From: Edaphochlamys debaryana
Lineage: Eukaryota; Chlorophyta; Chlorophyceae; Chlamydomonadales
Direction: 5' to 3'
NCBI GenBank assembly: GCA_016858145.1
Contig: JAEHOE010000003.1
Location: 2,542,001-2,606,000 of the forward strand
DNA length: 64,000 nt
The translations under genes and the position numbers were made by a program. A model generated the notes under the pieces. The model had not been told where the DNA came from. It worked only from the letters and a program-made list of their open reading frames with translations, and ran no database searches. Below, piece by piece: positions 2,140-63,948 of the stretch (the first letter of the stretch is position 1; each line of letters opens with the position of its first letter).

Positions 2140-4661
2140 TCACACACCGCTCGCCGGCTCCACCTGCGTCCTGAACCGCAGCATGCCCAGGCGCTCCTCG
2201 GCGACCACGCCCGGCTGCTGCCGGGCCCACGCCACGACCCCCAGTCGCTTCGCCAACTGAAGCCTGCGTCCCAGCTCCGTCCAGTCGGGCCGGCAGCCCT
2301 CGTCCACCAGCCACTGCAGCGTGGCGACAGGCGCTGACGTCACGGCTTCCGACAGCAGCCTGGCCCCGCTGGCGTCCGGGTTGAGGGGCAGGCCCAGGCG
2401 GCGCAGCAGCGGCAGCATGCGCCACTCGCGGCCGCAGACAGCGGCGAGGTAGGGGCCACCGTTGTCCTGAGGGCGGGGGCGGCAAAGGGAAGGGAAGGGC
2501 TTGGCAAGGCGCGCGCGGATGCCGGCTGAAACGTAAACGGGCCAAGCCTTCAGGTAAAGGGGCCCAGCGATTGACGGCAAGGCCACAAACCTTCACCTCA
2601 GCTACCATCAGCTCTCAGGCCCCAGCCCAGCCTCATCCGCTCACCGGCATGGGGCAGCCCAGCTCCGCCAGCAGCTCCACCGCCGCCTCGCAGCCCGAAG
2701 CTGCCGCCGCTCCTCACGCGGCTGCATCCACCTCAAAGCCCCGGGCGGAGAGCCATGACATGGCTTCCACGGAGCCACTGTAGGCGGCCGCGGCAAAAGG
2801 CTTGCTGTATGACCCGCCGCCGCCCCCAAGCACGTGTGCCCTGCCACTCCGGTTCAAGTCCTCACCAGCAGGGGCATGGTCCACCGCCCACTGCATCACG
2901 GGCACGCGGCCGGCGTGGGCCGCCTCAAACAGCAGCGCATTCCAACGAAACGGGTAGCCAGCCTGCCAGTGTGCGGGGGCGGGGGACACCAACGGCCAGT
3001 CAGCCGAGCCGGCAGGGGTCAAAAAACTACACAGCAGGACGCAACGGGTCGCGCAGCGCAAAGCTGCACTTGCGCCTCTTGCCCCTCTGAAGGGGCTTGC
3101 AGAGCCAGAGCAGTCGAGCGCCCGCCGCCGCTGCGCCTGCACCCGCCCCACCCTGTTATCCCTGCGGCCTTCCCACCTGGGCCCTGCGCCCTCCCTTCCC
3201 TGGAACCACCTGCCCCACCCTGTTATCCCTGCGGCCTTCCCACCTGGGCCCTGCGCCCTCCCTTCCCTGGAACCACCTGCCCCACCTGCCGCAGCATCTC
3301 CAGCGCTTGCACGTGGCCCTGTGCCGCCGCCTCGTCCACAGAAGCCTCCTCGCTGCGGCCGATCATCACTCCCTCCGCCAGCAGCCACCGAGCCGCCTCC
3401 ACCAGCCCACCGGCAACCGCGGAGCTCAGCCCGTACAGCGGCTCTCTGTCCACGTTGTCATCAGCCACCGGCTGGCAGCCCCTGCCACACAGCCAGGCGT
3501 AGCGCTCGACCATCTCGGCCCCAGTCAGGTTTGGGTTTGTGATGTAGTAGCAAGTGCGCTGGGGCCTAGTGCCCAGGGAGCACAGCCACTCCGCCTTGGC
3601 CTGCCAGTCCGGGGTGCGGCTGCCGAGGGCCGCCGTCAGGGCGGAAAGCAGCTGCTGCACAGCGGTTGGGCCGTTGGGAGCCGCGGCGCCGTCACCGCCC
3701 AGGCCGCCGACAGCGCCGCCGTCGGCCCCTGCTGGGCCCGGCTCGTTGCCCTCCTGCCCCTCCACTTCCTCCCCTGGCCATATGACCGCCTGGGCTGCGA
3801 ACATGGGGTCCGGGGCCTCGGCTGGCTGCCCGGGTTGTATGCCTTCGGGAGGTGGGAGCCGAATATAGGTGACCCACACGCGCTGGGCAGTCGTGAGGTC
3901 GCAGCCCTCGAGAGCTGCGAGGAAGAGGTTGAGCGCTGATACCTGCTGGTCCGCCTGGTATCCCACCGCCGCTGCCTCTGCCAGGAGCCAGTCCATGAGG
4001 GACACATGGCCAGCGCACGCAGCAGCCCCCGCCGCGTACCAGATGTCGCCACGACCCTCGTATGGGATGAACCTGGCGTCTCCGTAAACGCGGCGAAAGG
4101 CTGAGCAGCGGTCCAAGCACCACTGGCAGACCACCCGCTGCCCCGCCCTGGCCGCTGTTGAGAGCACGGCGCCCCAGTTGATGTTGAACACTTCTCGCGC
4201 CCCCGACTCGTCCACCAGCCACACGCAGCTCTCCAGAGCGCCGCCTGCGGCCGCTGCCTCGAGCGTCCCCTGGGTGGGCTCCGTGCCGGTCAGGGCGATG
4301 GCGGCACGCAGGTTGCGGACCTCATTGCTCGCGGCCACGAGGGCGACCAGCCGCTGGCGCTGGGAGCCCGTGAGTGCCTTGAAGGCGTTAGGTGCTGCCC
4401 ATCGCTCGTCGAACGCCCAGGCTGGAACGCTCGCGGAGAGCGCAATCACGCGGCATGCTGCTTGAAGACGTCGGCTGCCGTGGTGTTCACTGTCCTCAGG
4501 CACACCTGCTCGTTGGGGTACAGGAAGGATGCGATCCGCTCCAGGTAATCGGGCGTCCAGAGCTGTCTCAGCTCGCTGTCGGAGGCGGTTCCGAGAGCCG
4601 GGCGGTCCGTGCTGTCGAGACCTCCGCATCGCTCCAGCGGGTTGCACTGCTCGTGAGCCAT
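2140..4661 (-). pseudogene. B1: disabled F-box/ankyrin-like gene (frameshift and nonsense codon)
   Basis: Second family, same layout as intact B2. Exons are 4661-3286, 2962-2645 and 2466-2140, with phase-0 introns after LRQ and after the GCPMP-equivalent position. The start MAHEQ and the F-box-like segment (DYLERIASFLYPNEQVCLRT) are present, followed by ankyrin-like helical repeats. Two lesions separate it from B2. A 2-bp insertion near 4447-4449 puts a TGA directly after FKQHAA and shifts the rest of exon 1. A TGG to TGA change at 2714-2716 stops exon 2 after GFEVDAAA. All splice sites and the final stop remain, so loss of function is recent. Both lesions would have to be sequence errors for the gene to be active. 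Confidence 0.8.
3151..3284. repeat. 67-bp direct tandem duplication in B1 intron 1
   Basis: Two adjacent copies (3151-3217 and 3218-3284) of a 67-bp unit beginning CCCTGTTATCCC, identical by eye. The unit abuts the exon 1 donor and repeats several CACCTG stretches that look like donors on the minus strand. B2 lacks it. Confidence 0.85.
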
Positions 4662-12214: not shown

Positions 12215-14808
12215 TCACTGCCCAAGCTTCGCCCGCTGCTCTCTCACCCAAGCCAGTAGCTCCGCCTTCTCGCCATCGGTTGCGCGGCTGCCATACCACT
12301 CCACCGCCCCCTCCGCCTCCGCGCAGTCCCCCTCGCCCATCACATAGCCCTCCTCCTCCACCAGCCACCGCAGCACCTGCAGAGGAGCCCTGCCGACGAG
12401 CAAGTAGGAGAAGATGGACCGCTTGCCCTCAGCGCCCAAGGGCACGCCCAAGCGGCGTAGGACGGGCACCAAGTTGCATGCGCCCTCGCCTGCCGCCGTC
12501 TTGTAGGGGCTGCCGTCGGTCTGTGGGGCGGGCGCATGGGCCGGCAAGCAACGACCGTGATGGGGGATTTGCGCGGCCGGCGGGGGAGGCGACCGTTGAC
12601 TCGCCAAGGATGTGCATGCCCCCATGAAATCCGACGGCAAGCAGTTTCAGGGTCTGGCCCAAGGAAGCACTCCGTGAGTCGCGCTGACGTCCCCACCCGG
12701 CACCCCACCCGCCCTGTTGTGCTAAATGCTGACCTGCCAGCCACGGTTCTATGGCCTTGTGGTCCACTCCGATGCCTTCCCAACTGAAGGCGGCTCCTTG
12801 CCCGGCCCCACCGCTCACCGGCTTGGGGCAGCCCCACTCCTCCAGAAGCTCCAGGGCCGCCTCGCAGCCCGACCCCGCGGCCGAACGCCACGCGCCCTCG
12901 TTGCACGGGCAGCCGTGCGCCCTCAGCCACAGCATCGTCTCCACGCCTGCCGTGCGTGCAGAGCCCCACTCGGGCCCAGCGGCGACGTTCATCTCTCTTG
13001 CCGTCAGGCCGTGTTGCTCGAGGGTCCAGCCGAAGGCGTCCCACACCCAATCGAGGACGGGGATCTGTCCACCGCAGACGGCCCAGAAGGCGAGGGAGCG
13101 CGGGTTGAGGGCGCAGCCCACCTGCAGTCCAGGTTAGCAGTGAAGCGTCGCCTTGACTCAATCACGGCTGCGTCACAGCCTCGCACCCGATGCTCAATCC
13201 GTACACCACAACAGGGCGTATCTGCATAGGCCCATCCCAGCACCCGAGTCCCGGCACCCTCCGCGCCCTCTGAGCCTCACCTGCTTGAGAGCCTTCAGCA
13301 CGCTTAGGCGCCCAGCCTCCGCCGCCATCCCATCGTCGTAGTCATTCGCAACCATGGTGCCGACCTCCGTAGAGTGCTCCACAACGCCGCGCTCGTACAT
13401 CCAGTCCACCACCTCCATAAGGCCCGCTCGGATTGATTTACTCAGTAGCCCCTCCGGCCCCTCGCCGCCGCCCGCGCGACGGCCTTGCGCCCACAGCCAC
13501 TCGAACCGCTCCAGGACCGTGGCTGCGCTTAGCGCGGGCGTGGCCGAGAGGACGGTATCGTAGTAGTTGGCGCCGGGCCAGAAGTAGACCTCGTCCTGGC
13601 CCTCCTCGTTTTGGCCCAACACGACGTCGTGGCCCTCCTCGGCGGCGAACTCGGCGCCCAGGGACAGGAGCCACTCGGCCTGGGGTGTGGCACGGGATCA
13701 GCAAGGAAGGGATGAAAGGGTATAGCACCGAAGCGTTGACCGGTGAGGGCTGGTGAGCAGTAGAGCGGGTGAGCGATACCGGTATGAGTGCGCCATGAGC
13801 CCCTTCGGACGGGAGGGCCGAACCCAGCTCCTTTCAGGTGCACGATACTGGCATGTCATACAGCGCCTGCTTGAGCAGTCCGTCTGTGTCTGTCGGCTTG
13901 TCCTCTCCCCCAGTCTGCCGCCAGCCGTCCGCGCCGTTCGCTACCTCACGCTAACGTTGCTCCCTGGAGTTGTCCCCGCGTCTTCCCACCTTGGCCTGCC
14001 AGTCGGGCGTGGGGCTGCCGAGGGCGGCGTCCAGGCCCTCAGATTGCCAGGACCAGTGCTGCGGTCCGTCGTACCGGGCCCACAGCTGCTGCACGGTCGC
14101 CAGGTCACAGCCGTTTAGCGCCACCATAGAGTACGAGTGATAGCGGCTGCGGGCATCTGGGTCGGTCTCATGTGTGAGCAGGGTGTCCGCGAGGGCCGCA
14201 TGGCCGCTGCGCAGGGCTTCCACGGCCGCCTCAGCGGCCCTGACAGGAGCCGGGGAGCTCTGGATGACCAGGTCGCAAACGCTGGTGTGCCCTGCTTTGG
14301 CAGCAGTCTGCAGCAGAGCGTCCCAGTCGGGAGACTCCCGCATTCGCCCAGGCTCCAGGAGCCAGCGGAGGCTGTCCTCTGCGTTGGCGGCAGCGGCCGC
14401 CTTGAGGTTTTCGCGGGTGGGCGACAGGCCCGTCGCCGCCAGCGCCAGCTCCAGGTTGGGGACGTCGTTGGTCCGAGCCACGAGCGATACCACCTTCTCG
14501 CGCTGCTTGATGGTGAGGAGCTTGCAGATCCCGGACTCAAACCACTGCTCCAGCGCGCACCGGGGCACGGGCTGGGAGAGGTGGATGGCGGTGGAGTCGG
14601 GTCCGTGGCCATCCCTGAGGACCACGGCCGTGATCCGGTTGATCGGCCTCAGGTAGACCCGCTCGTTGAGGCACAGGTAGGTAGCGATGTGTGCCACGAG
14701 GTCGCGGGAGTCGAAAACAGCGTTCGCAAGTGATGCGTCCTGGGATCGCGCCGCGGCAGCATCCTCAGGACCACCAGACACTTTCTGACGCTTGTGCATG
14801 CTCAGCAT
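12215..14808 (-). CDS. A3: F-box-like protein with ankyrin-like repeats (intact)
   Basis: Four exons, 14808-13990, 13679-13281, 13121-12819 and 12520-12215, with phase-0 GT-AG introns, encode 608 residues. Exons 1, 3 and 4 have exactly the A2 lengths. Exon 2 is 24 bp longer because an acidic loop is extended (EEGHDVVLGQNEEGQDE in place of SEEDHHGEDE). The start ATG gives MLSMHKRQKV. The F-box-like segment is DLVAHIATYLCLNERVYLRP; repeats as in A2. A3 is more diverged from A1 and A2 than they are from each other, which suggests that the A1/A2 copy step is younger. It is the first gene of the array in transcription order. Confidence 0.85.
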
Positions 14809-15515
14809 CCGTACATATGCTAGATTAGGTCTGGAACGAGCAGGCCCGCGACAAGCTGATGGCTGCCGACCGAAATGGCGCGAAGGCGCAGTCCCTCGCA
14901 AAGTGCCGGGCAGCCAGTAACGATGGCGCTCTCTGAAAAGCTATTTACACCATGTAGTTTAGCGGACCTAACTTTCCCTGCAGCCCCAAGCCACCGCGCC
15001 ACGAAACACATTGTCTTGCCCTTTCCCCCCGCCACGGAACACGACCTCTTCCCCCTTGCATGGCCGATGACGCTAGATTGCCGCATTCCCCGAGCTCTCC
15101 TTTCCACCCTGCCATGCGTTGCCTCATGCATGCCACTCCGGTATGCTGACGGGCGCCGGGGCGCGTCGAAGCCTGTCGAAGGAAGCGCTTCAGACCAAAT
15201 GGTGCTGACCGTGAACCTCCTTGAAAGTCAATCTCTGTCACCGAGACCCAGCTGCTCACGATGGTTAATGTGTGGCGTACATCTCGGCTTGGCACATGCG
15301 CTGGGACGAGAGATCTGGGGATAGGGGGATCTGCAGGCCGTCACCGCGAGGGGCACGCTTGAGCCGGGGGCGGCCGGGGCTGCCACGAGCTCAAACTGTG
15401 TTCGTGGCGCTCGTTGCTTTCGTGAGGCCAAAGGCAGTGCCAGCACCTCACCTGCAGCATACGTACTTACGAGCAAGCTCACACGCACAACTCGCGTGCG
15501 CAGGAAACCGCAAGG
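14809..15515. other. divergent intergenic region, A3 and M20 peptidase
   Basis: It contains the conserved A-type upstream block (14809-14985) and, on the other side, the 5' flank of the peptidase gene. The two genes are transcribed away from each other. No exon was recognised. Confidence 0.55.
14941..14947 (-). promoter_or_regulatory. candidate TATA-like box of A3
   Basis: Minus-strand TAAATAG about 136 bp upstream of the A3 ATG, at the same offset as the copy upstream of A2. Confidence 0.35.
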
Positions 15516-55314: not shown

Positions 55315-55315
55315 T
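55230..55315. repeat. short GGGCGGACTCC repeats at the stop codon of the mosaic gene
   Basis: About four imperfect units of 20-26 bp (GGGGCGGACTCCRCCGTCG). The last one overlaps the stop codon at 55315-55317. Confidence 0.6.
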
Positions 55316-58300
55316 TAGGGCGGAAGGACGTTCGACTCATAGTCTCCCGCCATGTTGCCTGCACGGGAAGAAGCGGCGCCGGGACCTCGGGAAGATGGTG
55401 CTGCCAAGACAATCGACTGTCCCTCTGTTTCCCGCCGCCAGGTCCAGGTCCCAGGTCCAACCAGGTCCAACCAGGTCCAACCAGGGTGGCAATGCTTTGT
55501 GCAACGCATCGAAAGTGTACACCCGCAAGAAGCAACAACACGTTCGTGTTGCCCCAACCCTCTGCAGCCCTCCCGGCAGCGGCGTGGTGAGGCGCTTCCA
55601 AACACGTCCCTGCCCGCGCCCCCTTCCGTCTGGATTCCGCGCGCTATGAAGCGTCCCCGCTCCTTGCTCACCTGGTGGGTAGTATTGGCACACGTAGATG
55701 GGTGCGTACGTGCACGACGCCGCCACGGCTGCGCACCCGAGCTGCGTGGACCCCACCCACAGCAGCTGCGTGGCGTGGCCTGTGCCCGAGGAGAAGCCAG
55801 GGTTGTTGTAGTCGTACTCGTAAATCTGTACGGAAATCGGGAGTACGGCAGGGAGCGATAGTGGCATGTCAACCCCTGGTGTTGCAAGGGCTTGTGCTTC
55901 AGTTTTACCCTGTTGTGGGTTTGCTACGGCAGCACCTGGCGACGAGTTGCGCTCCGGACCAGCCACACGCTGCGTACCTCATTGTACCACCCATCAGCTG
56001 CCTGTTGCCAGTTGGCCTGCCCTGCTGCCAAGTTCTCCCCCACGCCGTTCGTGCCGCTGTGCTCGAAGCCGCAGTACGAGGCCAGCTCCTCGCCCCAGGC
56101 CCGAGCCGAGGCCTCCAGCGAGGTGCTCCAAGCCATGGCCGGCGCATGGTGCCTGGCGCGGTAGTAGTTGTGCATGTCCAGGATTTCATAGCCTGAGTGC
56201 ATGGGCGAGGGTTTGGGGAGCGCGTCAGCATGGGTGGTGAGCCATCCACCCACGGCAAGGCCGGGGCGAGTAGATGGATGAAGTCAACTGCCTCTGCCCC
56301 ACCAAGCAAGCGCCTCGCCAACGGCGTAGGCGCAAGCAGCAAGCGGGCTTACGCGCAGCTGTACTGGCTTCCGTGTGCATGGCTTACCGGATGGACCGGG
56401 GCCCGGTCCTGGGCCTGGGCCTGGGCCGGGCCCGCCGCACGTGCCGCACGACGCTGGGCAGAGCACGTCTCGGACGCCCTGACCATTGTAGACGTAATCA
56501 ATGGTCGTCGTGCAGTAACCCAGGCCCACCCAATAGTCACAGTTCTCAAATGATTCGATATCTTGGCAGCCTACGGGCCAGGGGTGGGCGGGCGTGGGCG
56601 GGCGAGGGCGTGCAGGGGTGCGTGAGGGCGTGTACATGGGGAGGGTGGCCAATCCATATCGTGCACGGGCCAACTCCATCGCCCAGGCTAAGAAGGCATG
56701 CATCTATTCCGATAGCGGCTCGGCGGGCGGCGGAAGCATGGCCCCGGGACTCGCCTGTGACTTCCGGCGGAGGCGGGGGCGACTTTGGCGGCGGCGGCCG
56801 CGGCGGCGGGGGCTTCGGCGGCGGGGGCCTGGGGCCGGGGGGTGAGGGCATGGGGGGATGTTAGATGGGGCAGGGGAAGGGCGGCGTCCCCGAGTCCCTG
56901 GGGGCCGGTCCCTGATGGCCTGAGTCACCGTGTCCTCTGAGTCCCCGAGTCAGTCCCCCGCGTGCCCCAGTCCCTTCTGGAGTCTCCCAATTAGACTGAC
57001 CGAGGTGGCGGGGGTTTCGGCTTGGGGGACGGCGGCTTGGGGGACGGCGGCTTGGGGGACGGCGGTTTCGGGGGCTTAGGAAGCGGAGGTCGCGGGGGTT
57101 TGGGCGGCTTGGGAAGCGGAGGCCGGGGGGGCGCCGGGGGTTTTGGAGGCTTCGGAGCCGGAGGCCGGGGCGGTGACGGCGGTTTGGGCTTGGGAGAGGG
57201 CGGTGATGGGGGCCGCGGGGGCTTGGGCCGAGGAGAGGGCGGTGAGGGCGGCGAGGGGGGAGCTGCGGGGGGCACAAACGCATAATTCGAAGCCGTGTCA
57301 AGACAGAACGAGACATGCGGACGGACACCTGCTAGCTGCTTCATGCTATGCCCCCCATGTTCCCATAAGAAGATTCCGCATCCCTGGCGAACCCGACTAC
57401 AGGCCTTTGCACTGCCAGCAGGCGCTGGGCACAGGACATGAACGGTAATGAAGGGGCCCAGATCTGGGACTGGCCAGGCGTACCCACCTAGCACGCCGCA
57501 AATCCCACACGTCTTAGGGCACAGCACGGTAGGCACGCTCTGGTTGTTGAACATGGTGCCCGGCTTGCAGTAGCCGAATGTCTGCCATGACGCACAGGAC
57601 GAAACCTTATCGACGCAGGCTGGGGCACACGGGAAAGGAGTGCATGTCAGGGGGCAGGCCACATGAGGGCCTTTTCGCAATCATGCATCGGTAAACGGTA
57701 CGGACCCTTACTACCTTAGGCCGCAACAGGCTACAAGCCACCAGGCCAAGCGCTACCGGGAGAGTCAAACGGCGCCAAAGAGTTGCTTACTTGAGGGTGG
57801 CTTGGGCCCTGACGCATGGCCCAGGAAGGCAACGTAGGCGGTGGCTCCCTGGTCCTTCATCAGCATGCAATCGCGCGTTATCGACGACCATACCCAATAG
57901 GCGCACAACGCGTTATTGCCACATGCGGTGCAGCAAGCCGCGGCGTTGGGGGCGCCGGCCATGGTCATGAACTGAGAGCCTGTGGGGCGGTTAAGGGCGG
58001 GTAGGGGGCGGGGTTGACCAGACCGAGGCTTCACGCTTGTTAAGATGTAAAGCGTGACCCAATAGTAAATTTGTGATCAGAGCAATTGCGCGGGCGTTGC
58101 GCACACCTCATGATGCTAGCGGCCTTGACCACAACTTCCCGCGCCGCGCTCGCTAAGAACGCGGAGCAGGTCGTATTTCTGAGCAAGCCACTGAGCAAGG
58201 CTTGGGGTCAATCCACGCAGTTTGCCGCAACGACAAGTCTGAATTCGGCGGCCTCAAACGCGGCCCTTCGCGTGGCAAGTAAGGCAGGTGTGGTACACAT

Positions 58301-61300
58301 CAACAGTGTATTATGAATTCGCAAATACTGGTAGATGTCGGCATGCCTTGGCCGGCAGGCTGCGCGCCCATTGCCCCCGCCCGTCCCCGCCCATCCACCC
58401 CAAACCCCCTTCCCCTCCAAAATTGCCTGCGCCTTGGCACATGACCTACCCGGAGCGCCATAGTTCATGTTGCCGCGAATGGTGCACGTATCTGCATGGA
58501 GGTAGAACGACGGGAAGGTGGGAGGGATGCGTCAGCAGCCGTCAGGCCCCCTAGCGGATGCGCATTCAGCGGTGGGGACTTGGCTCCATGCTGTGCCCGC
58601 TCAAGGCGGCCCTTCCAGGTAAGCATCAGCATATGGGACTGAGCCCGTATTATCCGAACTCACTGTTCGGGACCGTGCCAGGCGGCCGGGGGACCGGGGG
58701 GCGCGGGGGCAGAGGCGGTTTCGGCGGCTTGGGACGCGGCGGTGCGGGCGGTTTCGGCGGTTTTGGAAGCGGCGGCGCCGGCGGTTTGGGGGGTTTGGGC
58801 GACGGCGGTTTGGGGGGTTTGGGCGACGGCGGCTTGGGAGGCTTTGGTGAGGGCGGCTTGGCGAATTCTGTGAGGGGCGGCAGGTGAGGGAACAGCATTA
58901 GCAAAGGCGGGGTCGTGTATTGGCGACCGGTATCCAGCCAAGCACCCATGGTCCCAGCCACCATGCTCACCAGGCCAGGCCCACACAAACGAGATGGAGC
59001 GCAGCGAGCCGTCCGACGTGCCCCGGATGGCAATGAGTCGCTTCTCGCTCGTGGAGGGGCAGCCCGCGGGCTTGTCGGGGTTGAGGATGGGCCACTTGGT
59101 GTAATTTGGGGGGTCGTTCAGGGGCTGGCCTGACCCGGCAACAATCGTTCGCACGGACGTGCCGAACTCCAGCCGCGCCACCGCCAGGGGGCCGTTGTTG
59201 GTTGTGACGATGACTGAGGTGATGCGCTCTCCCGCATTGAGGGCGATGCCGCCCACAGCGCCGTTTGGGGTGCCGTGGCGGGCCCCAACGCCGGCGTAGC
59301 TGAACTGGATGGCGTCGATCCAGTACCCGCTCAACCAGTCGAGCCGCGTAACTGCGTGAATACACGGGCAGCCGCGCATGGGGAGTGAATGGGGGCTGAG
59401 GACGGGGCTTAGGGCGGAGGGGGAGCTGGCCAGCCTCACCGCTGACCTGTGTTAGGTCGGCGCGATGTTGATCGACAAATGCCCAGGCGTGCCCCCCGCC
59501 GAGCAAGCTACTGCTGTGCACCTAGCGCGTCCTTGCTTGAGTTGGCTTCGCTCCCCGCAGGATCAGGGCCCGGCTGAAAGGCCGGCCGGTGGGTGCGAGA
59601 AGACTTTCGCGGGGTGGCCGCAAGGGGGTGTCATGGAGCCACGCACAGACTCGCCTCCCACGCCCAGCACGCGATGCCACAAGCTAATGATTGCTTACCA
59701 ATACACTGTTGCAATGCGAGAGGGCAAGGTTCTCGACCCGGCGCGAACGCAAGCATGTTGAGGCGCGGACTCGCACCAACTCGCACCGAGGAGCGATGCA
59801 AATATCCGCTTAGCGTGCGTACATACTACATGGCGGTGGCAGTGAGTAATTCTGCCAACATTGTGCGCGAGGATGTTCGCGCGGCCTCGATCAAGCGTCG
59901 CTTGCTGACTTTCAAATCATGCCCGGTATTTCGTATACACCATATACTACTTAGATCCTTGATGTGAGAGAGTTGTCGGAGTTTGCCGCGGCTTCGCGTG
60001 GAGAAATGTGTTCCCGCGACCCTTCACCTACTTCACCATCGCAACCCGGTAACCCGGAGACTTCTCGCAGAGCGCGCCGCCCGGCCCCCGCGCTTCATAC
60101 TGTGCCTGCACGCATGTGCCATACCTCAGCTATCTTCAGGGTTCCACCCAGCAAAACCTCCCCAGCTTCGAGGAAGCCCTGGAGGAAGCTGACCTCCGAT
60201 GCTATAGCACGCACGTGTTCTCGGCAGCTGCCTGTCGGCCCGTGTCAAATGTGCGCTTACTTGGCTTGGCGCCGCCAGCCGCCAGAGGCGTGTCGTCAAA
60301 GTAGCTTCCCGCGGTCGACGCTCCGTAGAAGTTCGACGTCACTACGCACCGGCTTGGAACTGGTGGGAAGCAAGAGGCAGCAGGAAGGGAGGAGAGACGA
60401 AGGGACATCACACACACTGCGGCACCGCGCCGGCGCCTACGCTTCCCCGGCTCACACGAGCAGCCTTTCACACCGGCACGAGCGAATGGGGGCAGCCTTA
60501 CTCCAGGGAGGGCTTGCCAGACGGCCTGCTTGCACGCGCATTTGTACGCACCTCCGGCGGGCCGGGGTCCCGAAGAGTATCCATTGGCAGGCCCGAATCC
60601 ATTGACCCCGAGTCCTTGGTCCTTCTTGAGGTAGCAATCCCAGGAGCTTGAGCTCCAAACCCAGTAGGCGCATTCTGGGGTGCTGCCGCAAGTGCTGCAG
60701 CACGCCGCCGCGGACGACACGGATCTCACGGTGTTGAATTCGGAGCCTGCAGGGAACCGCCGTGTGAGCTCAGCCGCCAATGCACGTAACACAAGCAGGC
60801 CTTCGGTCCACGCTGGAACAGCACTGACTCACCTCCGATACCGTAGTCCATATTCTCGAGAATTGAGCAAGCGCCTGCGCTCAAGAACCGCAACCGAGAA
60901 GAGCAGCACCTGTAAGGAGAGCTTGTATCGATATGCCCACAGCGGCGAGAAGTGACAACAGGCACCGGCATCCCGCCGCGTGCACGGTGCCAAGGACCTA
61001 CCGGGTGTGGGAGCCGGGCCGCCGCCCAGTAGCTTGAGGCTCTTGAATACGTTCAGGCGGCCCTGCATAGGCACATATAGGTGGGCATAGGCGCGTGGAG
61101 CTTCTTCAAAGGCGCTCCCCGCAACGCACCCCTGCACCCCAACCTTGACCTGTACTCCAGCTGCGGGGAACTGCCGGCCGGCCCCTCCCCCTTACCGGGC
61201 CCCCGCCCTACCCCGCTCACCCCTGCCCTCCATCCTGCCCTACCCGTGCACCCCCGCCTCGGCCCCAGTCAACAGGCCTCACCAAGCATGCAGCCCCCCC

Positions 61301-63948
61301 AGTGAAATCAGCGTGCTCACCCCAGTGCTGCTGTAGTAGGCTCCGTCCACAATGTCCACGCCCCGCACCAGCGCAGACTTTATCTCCGCCGCCGTGGCGG
61401 TGGGCTTGTAGGCCCACAGCAGGGCGGCAGCGCCTGCGCGCAGTGGGCAGAGACTGGTGTGTTCGCGGGAAGCATCTTCTCCAGGGCTGAGAATGAATGA
61501 GCGCTTGTGTGGCTTGCTGATATCGACGGGCGAAGGCGTGACACCAGTATGGTAGAGCGTATCCGTAGAGAACCAGCCAGTCACTGCACGCCGCCACCAC
61601 GTGGCACAACACCAACGCAACCCCCGTCGCTTGTTCTGAGCCCGTCCTCACCTGCTACGTGTGGGGTTGCCATGCTCGTCCCAGACAGATACGCGTATTG
61701 GCTTGTGGGGTAGGTGGACAAGATATCTGTGCCAGGAGCGAACAGGGTCACGCTCTGCTCGCCGTAATTGGAGTCGCCGGCCATTACGTCATTGACGTCC
61801 ACGTTGCCGACTGTGATGACGGCTGGCAAGATGATGCTGTGGCAGGCGGGGAAAGGGGGGGGATGATGCTGAGGGGGGGTGGGACAAAAGAGAAACCCAC
61901 GTTACACCGTCCTTCAGATACCGTACAACGTGACCACGTCCCACCTCCCGGGGAACGTTGGGTTGGCGTCAATGTCCCAGCCGTCATTTCCTGCACGCGA
62001 GCAAGCCAAAGGTTAACCTGTTACTCATTGCTTGATGCGCAGGGGCTCCCAAGTACAAGGTAAATGTGCGCCTGTGCCTCTACCTGCCGCGCAGATGAAC
62101 AAGTGCCCGGCGTTCTGGCTGACAAGGATCTCGTCCTCCAGGGCTGACTCAGGAGCCCCTTTCCCGCCCCAACTGTTCGACGTGATCTTTGCGCCTCGAT
62201 CCCTGCGGGCTCGTACACACAGCCGATCAGATGCACAAGCAGGGATGTGTTGCACGTGACTAGCTAGCCTGTTCGGCAACCCATGGTAGCGGTCGCCATG
62301 AGATTTCAACCGAGCTCCCGGCTGCTGTGTGCCACGGCCCACCTGCACCATGCCATGCACTCGATAGCTACTGAGACGGGGCCATTGCCCGTTGAGTCAA
62401 GGAACTTGCAGGACAGCAGCTTGACGCGCCATGACACTCCCGCAACTCCGATGCCGTTGTTCCCCACACCGCCAACCGTCCCTGCGTTACCGGACAAGGG
62501 CATGGGGCGTTGCATGGCTTGTCATTGTTTCACCCGCAGCTCACTTGCATGCGCATCTGCTGCATACTGCTCGATGCTTGCTTCCTACCCGCGCAATGCG
62601 TCCTGATGACGTTGGGTTATGGAGCGAGGGTGGAGCAAGGAGGGGGCGGGGAAGCGGGGGCGTGGGGGAGGGGGCATAAAGTTATGTACGGTAGGGCGGG
62701 GCGTGAACCCGGTAGGCACGGGCCCCCCTTGAACCTTTCCCTCCGGACGTCTGGAGTCTTACTAAGCTCACCCGTGACCTTCGTCGTCGTTGTCAATGTC
62801 AGTGAATCCCGTTTGCATGTCGATCACCTCGCCCAGGTTTGCTGAAAGATCGGGGTGGCTTCCCTGGATGCCGGAGTCAATGATGCACACCTTGACCCTG
62901 CACGCAGAAGCACCGGCACGAGCCATCCGGGCAACCAATCAAGCGCAAGAAGCGTCTATGTTGAAGAGGCGCGAGGCTAGCTAAGCAGGCACCGTATCCC
63001 CCGTGCAGCAGAGCGCGTTATGAGCGAGGATGAGAGTCAACCCACGCAACCCACGTTTGCGCGCCCTGGGCTATGTCCCAGGCTTGGGGTGCGCTGATGA
63101 GTTGCATGGCGCCGCTGATTTGCCCCCAGCGTGCGTCATTGGGCGTTGCCATCTTGCTCATTATGTAGTCGGGCTCGGCGTCAAACCCTGGGCGGTGAGG
63201 TAGGGTGTCCGTGCGAGAGGCACTGTGAGGCATGATGTCGTACCCTCGCCGCAACCCGCCGCCGTCTCGCTCGGGGGCACGTGTCAAGTACACCATGCTC
63301 TACGGTACCCTCCGTCTCAACCCGCCGCCGCCGCCAGCTTCGGAACTCACCCTTGGCCTTGAACTCAGCAATAATCTGTTGAAGGTGGGTTGCGTCGTCC
63401 GGCTTGGCGTCGAGCCTGGCTCTGAGCTGTGGTGACACGGCCGGGGTCCCCGACTTGGCTCTGTACCAGCCCATCGCGCCCACCCGCTTCAAGCCAGACG
63501 GGTTGACGCCCATGCCCCCTAGCGTGCTGTTCTCCGAATCGCTGAGGAGAGAGAAGTCGGGAGCTCGGGACCTGGCCCTGGTGCGAGACGGCCTTAGCAG
63601 GAAGCCGGCGTACGCTCCGTAGGTCGTGGGCTTTGGCGGCGGCTGCATGCATCGGGCAAAATCAAGGGAGGGGGGGCGGTGGGGTGACGGCTTGGGTTGT
63701 GTCAGTACAGGAGGTAGGGGTAGGCTAGGGTGGATGGGATGGTGCGTGTGACTGCAGTAGTGGCGGCAGGGGGGCCCGGGGTGGCGCCTGGCCCCGCCAG
63801 GGGTTGGGGGCACGTGAAGGCACAAGGGGGTTCACACTTGAGATCCAGCGGTTGAGACCTGCAAGAGCTGAGTGTGCGAGGCCCGATGCGACCCCGCAGT
63901 GGTCGTAGACGACAAGGGCTATCACGCCAATGTGCTGCAGCGTTCTGG
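55315..63948 (-). CDS. secreted mosaic subtilase: S8 protease + PAN + jacalin-like + ShK + CAP modules (5' end outside window)
   Basis: Exons (high to low): 63948-63836, 63642-63351, 63187-63055, 62897-62772, 62602-62589, 62481-62343, 62202-62084, 61990-61945, 61836-61652, 61433-61321, 61062-61002, 60874-60833, 60746-60552, 60359-60261, 59351-58971, 58867-58664, 58491-58450, 57979-57791, 57619-57488, 57262-57001, 56828-56755, 56570-56388, 56192-55978, 55825-55672, 55358-55315. They join in phase to 1,184 residues. Subtilase triad: Asp in VCIIDSGIQG, His in GHGTHCAG, Ser in SGTSMATPHVAG, oxyanion Asn in CAAGNDG. Then PAN (CAYWVWSSSSWDC), jacalin-like lectin (WIDAIQFSYAGVG), Pro-rich linker (KPPSPKPP), PAN (CAYWVWSSITRDC), ShK (CASWQTFGYC), Pro-rich linker, ShK (CDYWVGLGYC), CAP (DMHNYYRARH, GHATQLLWVG). 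Cell-wall or matrix remodelling is likely; volvocine hatching enzymes are subtilases. Whether transcripts span all modules is untested. Confidence 0.85.
62589..62602 (-). other. 14-nt microexon of the subtilase catalytic His motif
   Basis: Flanked by AG (62604-62603) and GT (62588-62587). It supplies the THCA part of GHGTHCAG. Without it exons 62897-62772 and 62481-62343 do not share phase and the His motif is lost. Confidence 0.8.

Follow-up and report, generated by a model that had tools for sequence, protein, structure and literature searches.

A probable single gene for a secreted subtilisin-like protease with a PAN, jacalin-like, ShK and CAP tail bordered mostly by phase-1 introns in the green alga Edaphochlamys debaryana

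Among the S8 proteases of green algae, sporangin (VLE1) of Chlamydomonas reinhardtii is described as acting on the sporangial cell wall (PMC6313938; PMC9549277), and 21 S8 proteins are counted in the same species, in a paper whose main text does not contain the term PAN (PMC6313938). Outside the algae, deseasin MCP-01 is a multidomain enzyme that carries a collagen-binding domain at its C-terminus (PMC9549277). As regards E. debaryana itself, its most expanded orthogroup is reported to contain SRCR and C-type lectin domains (PMC8226300), an expansion in keeping with the many animal-type modules found in its genome; RNA-seq data have also been produced for this species (PMC8226300). At the level of titles and the beginnings of abstracts, the published literature yielded no description of an S8-PAN-jacalin-PAN-ShK-CAP architecture, which is the one considered here.

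The stretch analysed (the window) comprises 64,000 nts (C3:2542001-2606000), and searches of its own genome were made over the 141.9-Mb, 502-contig assembly. On the minus strand, the scoring of splice sites around the open reading frames of the domains, followed by their assembly, gives a chain of exons that is frame-consistent at every junction down to a stop codon at 55315. The final model has 25 exons and approximately 1,196 aa, starts at 64281 (C3:2606281), beyond the edge of the window, and contains no stop or frame break; its introns are all GT-AG, with the exception of one GC-AG. An unguided, ab initio splice DP likewise chose the end at 55315 and a single gene, with several internal exons garbled, and due to these poor internal exons the final model was curated under the guidance of homology. 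Thus, the claim of an earlier note on this DNA, that the exons run from the S8 domain to the CAP domain without a phase break, holds at all the junctions. The features are as follows:

64281-64135, minus strand, outside the window: exon 1, putative signal peptide; weak collinear match in a paralog on contig C39 of the same genome
55315-63642, minus strand: gene body within the window, 24 of the 25 exons; phase-consistent exon chain, collinear with the C39 paralog
63351-63642, minus strand: propeptide exon, phase 0 to 1; 55% identity with C39 across 92 codons, matches also in C178 and C76
61002-63187, minus strand: catalytic region of peptidase S8, 9 exons; Pfam PF00082 (4.3e-50), PDB deseasin MCP-01 (3.8e-56)
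62602-62589, minus strand: 14-nt micro-exon encoding THCA in the HGTHCAGT motif; flanked by AG and GT, counterpart in C39
60552-60874, minus strand: PAN 1, a 42-nt exon (60874-60833) and a 195-nt exon (60746-60552); phase 1 at all borders
58971-60359, minus strand: jacalin-like domain, two 1-1 exons (60359-60261 and 59351-58971) separated by a 909-nt intron
58664-58867, minus strand: Pro-rich exon, 204 nt, phase 1-1; a Pro-rich stretch stands at the same place in C39, where its splicing is ambiguous
57791-58491, minus strand: PAN 2, a 42-nt exon (58491-58450) and a 189-nt exon (57979-57791); phase 1 borders, 71% identical to C39
57488-57619, minus strand: ShK 1, a single 132-nt exon, phase 1-1, six Cys; Pfam ShK 24.2 bits (cut-off 20.9), 67% identical to C39
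56755-57262, minus strand: Pro-rich linker, exons 57262-57001 (phase 1 to 2) and 56828-56755 (phase 2 to 1, GC donor); marginal splice sites
56388-56570, minus strand: ShK 2, a single 183-nt exon, phase 1-1, six Cys; Pfam ShK 21.6 bits (cut-off 20.9)
55315-56192, minus strand: CAP domain, three exons (phases 1-0, 0-1, 1-stop), stop codon 55315-55317; Pfam CAP 1.4e-17, with counterparts in the C54 genes

The gene probably begins at 64281, and not at about 63948 as had been proposed earlier, a position for which C39 offers no match. The signal-peptide exon finds a weak, but collinear, counterpart in C39 (tblastn, 43.9% over 41 columns, E 0.04). An exon at 63934-63836 (HIGVIAL...), present in an earlier 26-exon model, was left out: nothing in C39 corresponds to it, and in that copy the donor of the signal-peptide exon and the acceptor of the propeptide exon after it are both phase 0. 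The window gene, too, joins phase 0 to phase 0 when this exon is skipped. A simple hydropathy scan between 64281 and 55315, of a kind blind to signal peptides that an intron interrupts, found a signal-peptide-like ATG only at 64281. When the stop-to-stop segments of the window strand were compared with C39, no same-strand match at E<1e-3 fell outside the exons of the model, so that no start conserved with C39 would lie concealed between S8 and PAN; the separate start for a PAN-jacalin-CAP gene, contemplated by the earlier note, does not appear by either route. The same comparison gave a match on the reverse strand at 64926-64810 (E 2.6e-4), as well as a number of weaker matches (E 0.005-0.04). 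The motif TGTAA is absent within 1 kb downstream of the stop codon and occurs once inside the gene, at 61906, in an S8 intron. Elsewhere in the window there is a 67-bp tandem repeat of 2.2 copies with 98% matches (3140-3286).

The assignment of the catalytic region to family S8 is clear (PF00082, 171 bits against a cut-off of 21.8), and the translation, aligned with MCP-01, contains the Asp/His/Ser triad and the oxyanion Asn in their motif contexts: VCIIDSG (D), GHGTHCAG (H), AAGND (N) and SGTSMATPH (S). The micro-exon was sought because THCA was missing from the HGTHCAGT motif, and the C39 paralog contains an AG-flanked GACGCATTGTGCAG-GT stretch that matches it. In a tree of 17 S8 rows, the window and C39 sequences are sisters (97/94) within a set that includes C178, C76 and three Volvox proteins (100/99), with Chlamydomonas sp. 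UWO 241 P0022 next outside this set (94/92).

The domain search that had been suggested for the joined protein matched the S8, PAN, jacalin, ShK and CAP profiles, with only PAN 2, taken alone, below the Pfam cut-offs (PAN_4 20.6 bits of 27, PAN_1 20.3 of 21.4); PAN 1 exceeds both (PAN_4 28.9 bits, cut-off 27; PAN_1 23.1 bits, cut-off 21.4), and the CAP match covers positions 1-117 of the 117 of PF00188 (65.1 bits). The pairing of a 42-nt exon with one of 189-195 nt, previously noticed for the PAN units, is seen in both of them, and the order of the modules and the 1-1 phases of the first Pro-rich exon and both ShK exons were also as first read. The jacalin-like exon kept its 1-1 phases, although the domain proved to need two exons across the 909-nt intron: it is not listed in a full-length Pfam scan (E<=0.1) and was matched once both exons were joined. 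Along with this profile match there is a beta-prism fold: in Foldseek, rows 1-30 are named lectin, griffithsin, ZG16 or WGA16, and larger proteins, immune or pore-forming, occupy rows 31, 40, 41 and 48. A single-sequence search of the PDB gave four chains, none of them a lectin, and an 11-row profile gave eight, which bear the names griffithsin, PPL3, jacalin-type or horcolin and have weak E values (0.007-1). The canonical jacalin sugar site has the form GXXXD; read by eye against this motif, the present domain contains DGSLRSISF, with Arg where the Asp would be expected. The sugar-site Asp thus seems to be absent, and glycan binding should therefore not be assumed.

The C39 paralog (C39:619623-627585), delimited by own-genome searches and tblastn, follows the order S8-PAN-jacalin-Pro-PAN-ShK-Pro-ShK, collinear with the window gene and with phase-1 sites at the borders of PAN, jacalin and ShK 1, whereas it has two more ShK after ShK 1, ends at CRGSCGLCSSG-stop (with the best acceptor), and lacks both the CAP domain and the S8 intron found at 61945-61836 in the window gene. 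Amino acid identity is 39% in the signal peptide, 55% in the propeptide, 72% in S8, 61% in PAN 1, 70% in jacalin, 71% in PAN 2 and 67% in ShK 1, with dN/dS values of 0.43 (propeptide), 0.26 (S8), 0.25 (PAN 1), 0.31 (jacalin), 0.33 (PAN 2) and 0.31 (ShK 1), and of 1.36 in the 36-codon comparison of the signal peptide; dS ranges from 0.42 to 1.27 between modules. The similar divergence from S8 to ShK 1 is what would be expected of a block that was duplicated once and kept under selection. Nevertheless, the S8 part of C39 closes with an in-frame TAG, directly before its strong phase-1 donor, and the donor after ATPHVA reads TT in place of GT, with weak alternative phase-1 donors near both lesions, so this copy may be undergoing decay or may terminate behind S8. 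Downstream of it (C39:617001-636000, local 13500-15500) lies a long array of near-identical repeats which translates as CRSMPHPPPPPIHTHALAPTC....

On this basis, we consider it likely that the window holds one gene, for a secreted multidomain S8A subtilisin-like protease whose tail would have been assembled by the joining and swapping of modules at phase-1 introns. The reading as a single gene has good support from S8 to ShK 1; the passage from the second Pro-rich region into ShK2-CAP is less secure, because it goes through three marginal splice sites (57001 gtcagt, the GC donor at 56755 and 56570 cgtag) and because ShK-CAP genes free of any protease exist in the same genome. The fusion proposed earlier is therefore supported from S8 to PAN-jacalin-PAN-ShK, given the collinear paralog, the jacalin domain that spans an intron and the lack of an internal signal-peptide-like ATG, and is less certain in its last step.

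It is at this step that the strongest alternative arises, according to which two genes would lie side by side: one with the order S8-PAN-jacalin-Pro-PAN-ShK-Pro, which would stop at about 56988, and a ShK-CAP gene running from 56570, or from further upstream, to 55315. If the donor at 57001 were not used, the frame through ShK 1 and the Pro-rich stretch would stay open and end after PPPPRSV, at the stop codon 56990-56988; moreover, the C39 paralog of the protease lacks CAP, and C54:338001-356000 contains two plus-strand copies of a gene with the order signal peptide-ShK-ShK-ShK-CAP and no protease (in a third, inverted copy, a signal peptide and three ShK were found, but not CAP). As read at the best sites of one plus copy, these C54 genes resemble the window gene in their 1-1 ShK exons, in the intron positions and phases of their CAP exons (1-0, 0-1, 1-stop) and in the matching last exon, although they have their own putative signal peptide. 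Such a peptide is precisely what is missing ahead of ShK 2, where no signal-peptide-like ATG is found; in addition, the phases of the single chain close exactly, and in C39 a Pro-rich stretch likewise stands between ShK 1 and the next ShK, and runs directly into it. In consequence, we regard two adjacent genes as unlikely. Among at least 32 S8 and at least 32 CAP matches in the genome, the window locus is the only one with both within 10 kb.

A division near 61000, which would leave a short S8 protease on one side and a distinct PAN-jacalin-ShK-CAP protein on the other, would find a precedent in the stop codon of C39 at the end of S8, yet in the window the frame is open at this point and is followed by a phase-1 donor, a strong donor of the same phase is kept in C39 just after its stop, other S8 paralogs have a phase-1 donor at the S8-closing exon too, and no start or signal peptide is conserved ahead of PAN 1, all of which makes this division very improbable. 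Even less credible is a decayed or non-expressed gene whose frame was kept by chance: the possible lesions of the C39 paralog would speak for it, but the window gene maintains 25 exons without a stop or frame break, dN/dS of 0.25-0.33 against C39 in five modules, and, as judged by eye, the residues of its catalytic site and the six Cys of both ShK.

Returning to the single protease gene, its intron phases differ between front and tail. The 10 introns of the front part have phases 0, 1, 2, 2, 1, 2, 1, 2, 1, 0, and the 14 of the tail, counted from the S8/PAN border, 1, 1, 1, 1, 1, 1, 1, 1, 1, 2, 1, 1, 0, 1; phase 1 thus accounts for 12/14 against 4/10 (Fisher p=0.03). By chance, 12/14 would have a probability of 8e-5, 6e-4 or 6.5e-3 at rates of 1/3, 0.4 or 0.5, which are assumed rates and not the phase background of the genome itself. 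The initial impression that almost every module from 61002 onward begins and ends in phase 1 is in this way largely sustained, with the exceptions of the second Pro-rich region (phases 1-2 and 2-1) and the phase-0 intron inside CAP.

The same borders were surveyed in 14 PAN loci and 11 of the 48 jacalin matches, excluding from the counts the 4 PAN and 2 jacalin copies that belong to the window and C39 genes. At the module end, the best site is a phase-1 donor in 15 of the 16 copies with a site (PAN 6/7, jacalin 9/9; donor unscored in 3 PAN copies), and at the module start a phase-1 acceptor in 11/13 (PAN 6/8, jacalin 5/5; acceptor unscored in 2 PAN and 4 jacalin copies). At rates of 1/3, 0.4 and 0.5, the respective probabilities are 8e-7, 1e-5 and 3e-4 for the donors, and 2e-4, 1e-3 and 1e-2 for the acceptors, figures that treat related copies as independent trials, which they are not: the phases of paralogous modules are inherited and do not represent independent events. 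The 48 jacalin-like matches form a large family for a green alga, with clusters of exons at C10:765002-773239, C91, C42 and C96.

The shuffling of exons that form symmetric phase-1 modules is traditionally linked to animal extracellular proteins. In E. debaryana, two of its traits coincide: (i) phase-1 introns stand on both sides of the modules, in the tail and in the other PAN and jacalin copies, so the symmetric 1-1 modules first noticed here are found in other genes of this genome; (ii) the same module occurs at the same border in different genes, as with ShK and CAP in C3 and C54, where the CAP intron phases agree and the last exon matches, and as with the S8 border, which is followed by differing downstream frames in C3, C39, C76 and C178. 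The S8-closing exon has a phase-1 best donor in the window gene, in C39, in C76 and in two copies on C178, with PAN after it in the window and C39, and, by eye, other Cys-bearing frames in C178 and C76. After the S8 gene at C76:65001-75000 come several copies, nearly identical to one another, of a module that has no name (LDEAGCGALQEKYGLVPQ...CRYWCVP). We tentatively propose, as a real possibility that falls somewhat short of an even chance, that this unicellular alga has its own animal-like class 1-1 shuffling, in which the recombination of S8, PAN, jacalin, ShK and CAP cassettes cut at phase-1 introns would have given rise to a family of proteases and lectins, all secreted. This family would have converged on the modular matrix proteins that animals possess, and the S8-CAP gene would be its most elaborate product seen here. 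What gives this proposal its value is that a single genome contains paralogs with a common front and differing tail modules at phase-1 borders, together with protease-free genes that carry the same cassettes, whereby the donor-acceptor relations of shuffling become testable in a lineage outside the shuffling events of animals; it also indicates a candidate family of wall-remodelling proteases.

As for the function, the combination of signal peptide, propeptide and catalytic residues suggests that the protease is secreted as a zymogen. The signal peptide would direct the protein to the secretory pathway, the propeptide would presumably hold the protease inactive until its removal, and the D/H/S triad would then cleave protein substrates. 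PAN, jacalin, ShK and CAP are typically extracellular modules, and the Pro-rich stretches are similar to the hydroxyproline-rich rods found in the wall proteins of algae; because of both these properties, the likeliest role for the tail (PAN, jacalin-like, Pro-rich rods, PAN, ShK, ShK, CAP) would be to anchor the enzyme on glycoproteins of the cell wall or matrix and to pick its substrate, a task that accessory domains perform in other proteases of the matrix. This tail could have been built by joining and swapping modules at phase-1 introns, as suggested by the phase-1 donor that closes S8 in the window gene and the paralogs examined, with different modules after it.

Outside this genome, no protein with the same domain order appeared among the best 120 of 6907 listed (query words taken from residues 1-500; 7993 scored candidates), and a query with the PAN-jacalin region gave none of 7996 proteins at E<=1e-3. 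As these searches took in proteins of 0.55-1.75 times the query length, with no named row from Edaphochlamys, the absence of the order elsewhere is weak evidence, and it is within those lengths, and among the matches listed, that the earlier statement that no named protein has this order can be upheld. From 78 candidates, under the same limits of length, the CAP region gave one match, P0121, a EukProt protein of 1808 aa with six Pfam stretches of CAP.

The nearest named S8 relatives among the matches listed are P0006, P0007 and P0015, of Volvox africanus and V. reticuliferus (48-51% identity over approximately one third of the query), which share an N-terminal S8 and a repeated tail module, although this repeat has no Pfam name and they contain no PAN, jacalin, ShK or CAP (Pfam, E<=1). 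P0022 of Chlamydomonas sp. UWO 241 combines a related S8 with a Thr/Pro-rich linker and an animal-type module, but this is SRCR (69 bits) in place of PAN, jacalin, ShK and CAP, and the metagenomic P0034 unites S8 and CAP in one chain as CAP + S8 + S8, with CAP at the N-terminus and no PAN, jacalin or ShK. Judging from these sequences, S8 with varying C-terminal modules is a theme of these algae, and the module order of the window gene is the new part. The nearest working analogies would be sporangin, which digests the wall at hatching, and deseasin, with its collagen-binding domain (PMC6313938; PMC9549277). Sporangin is set apart by its description as a type 2 membrane protein whose core is grouped with furin/PC-like enzymes (PMC6313938; PMC9549277), and deseasin MCP-01, the best solved S8 relative of the window gene, is bacterial and bears different accessory domains.
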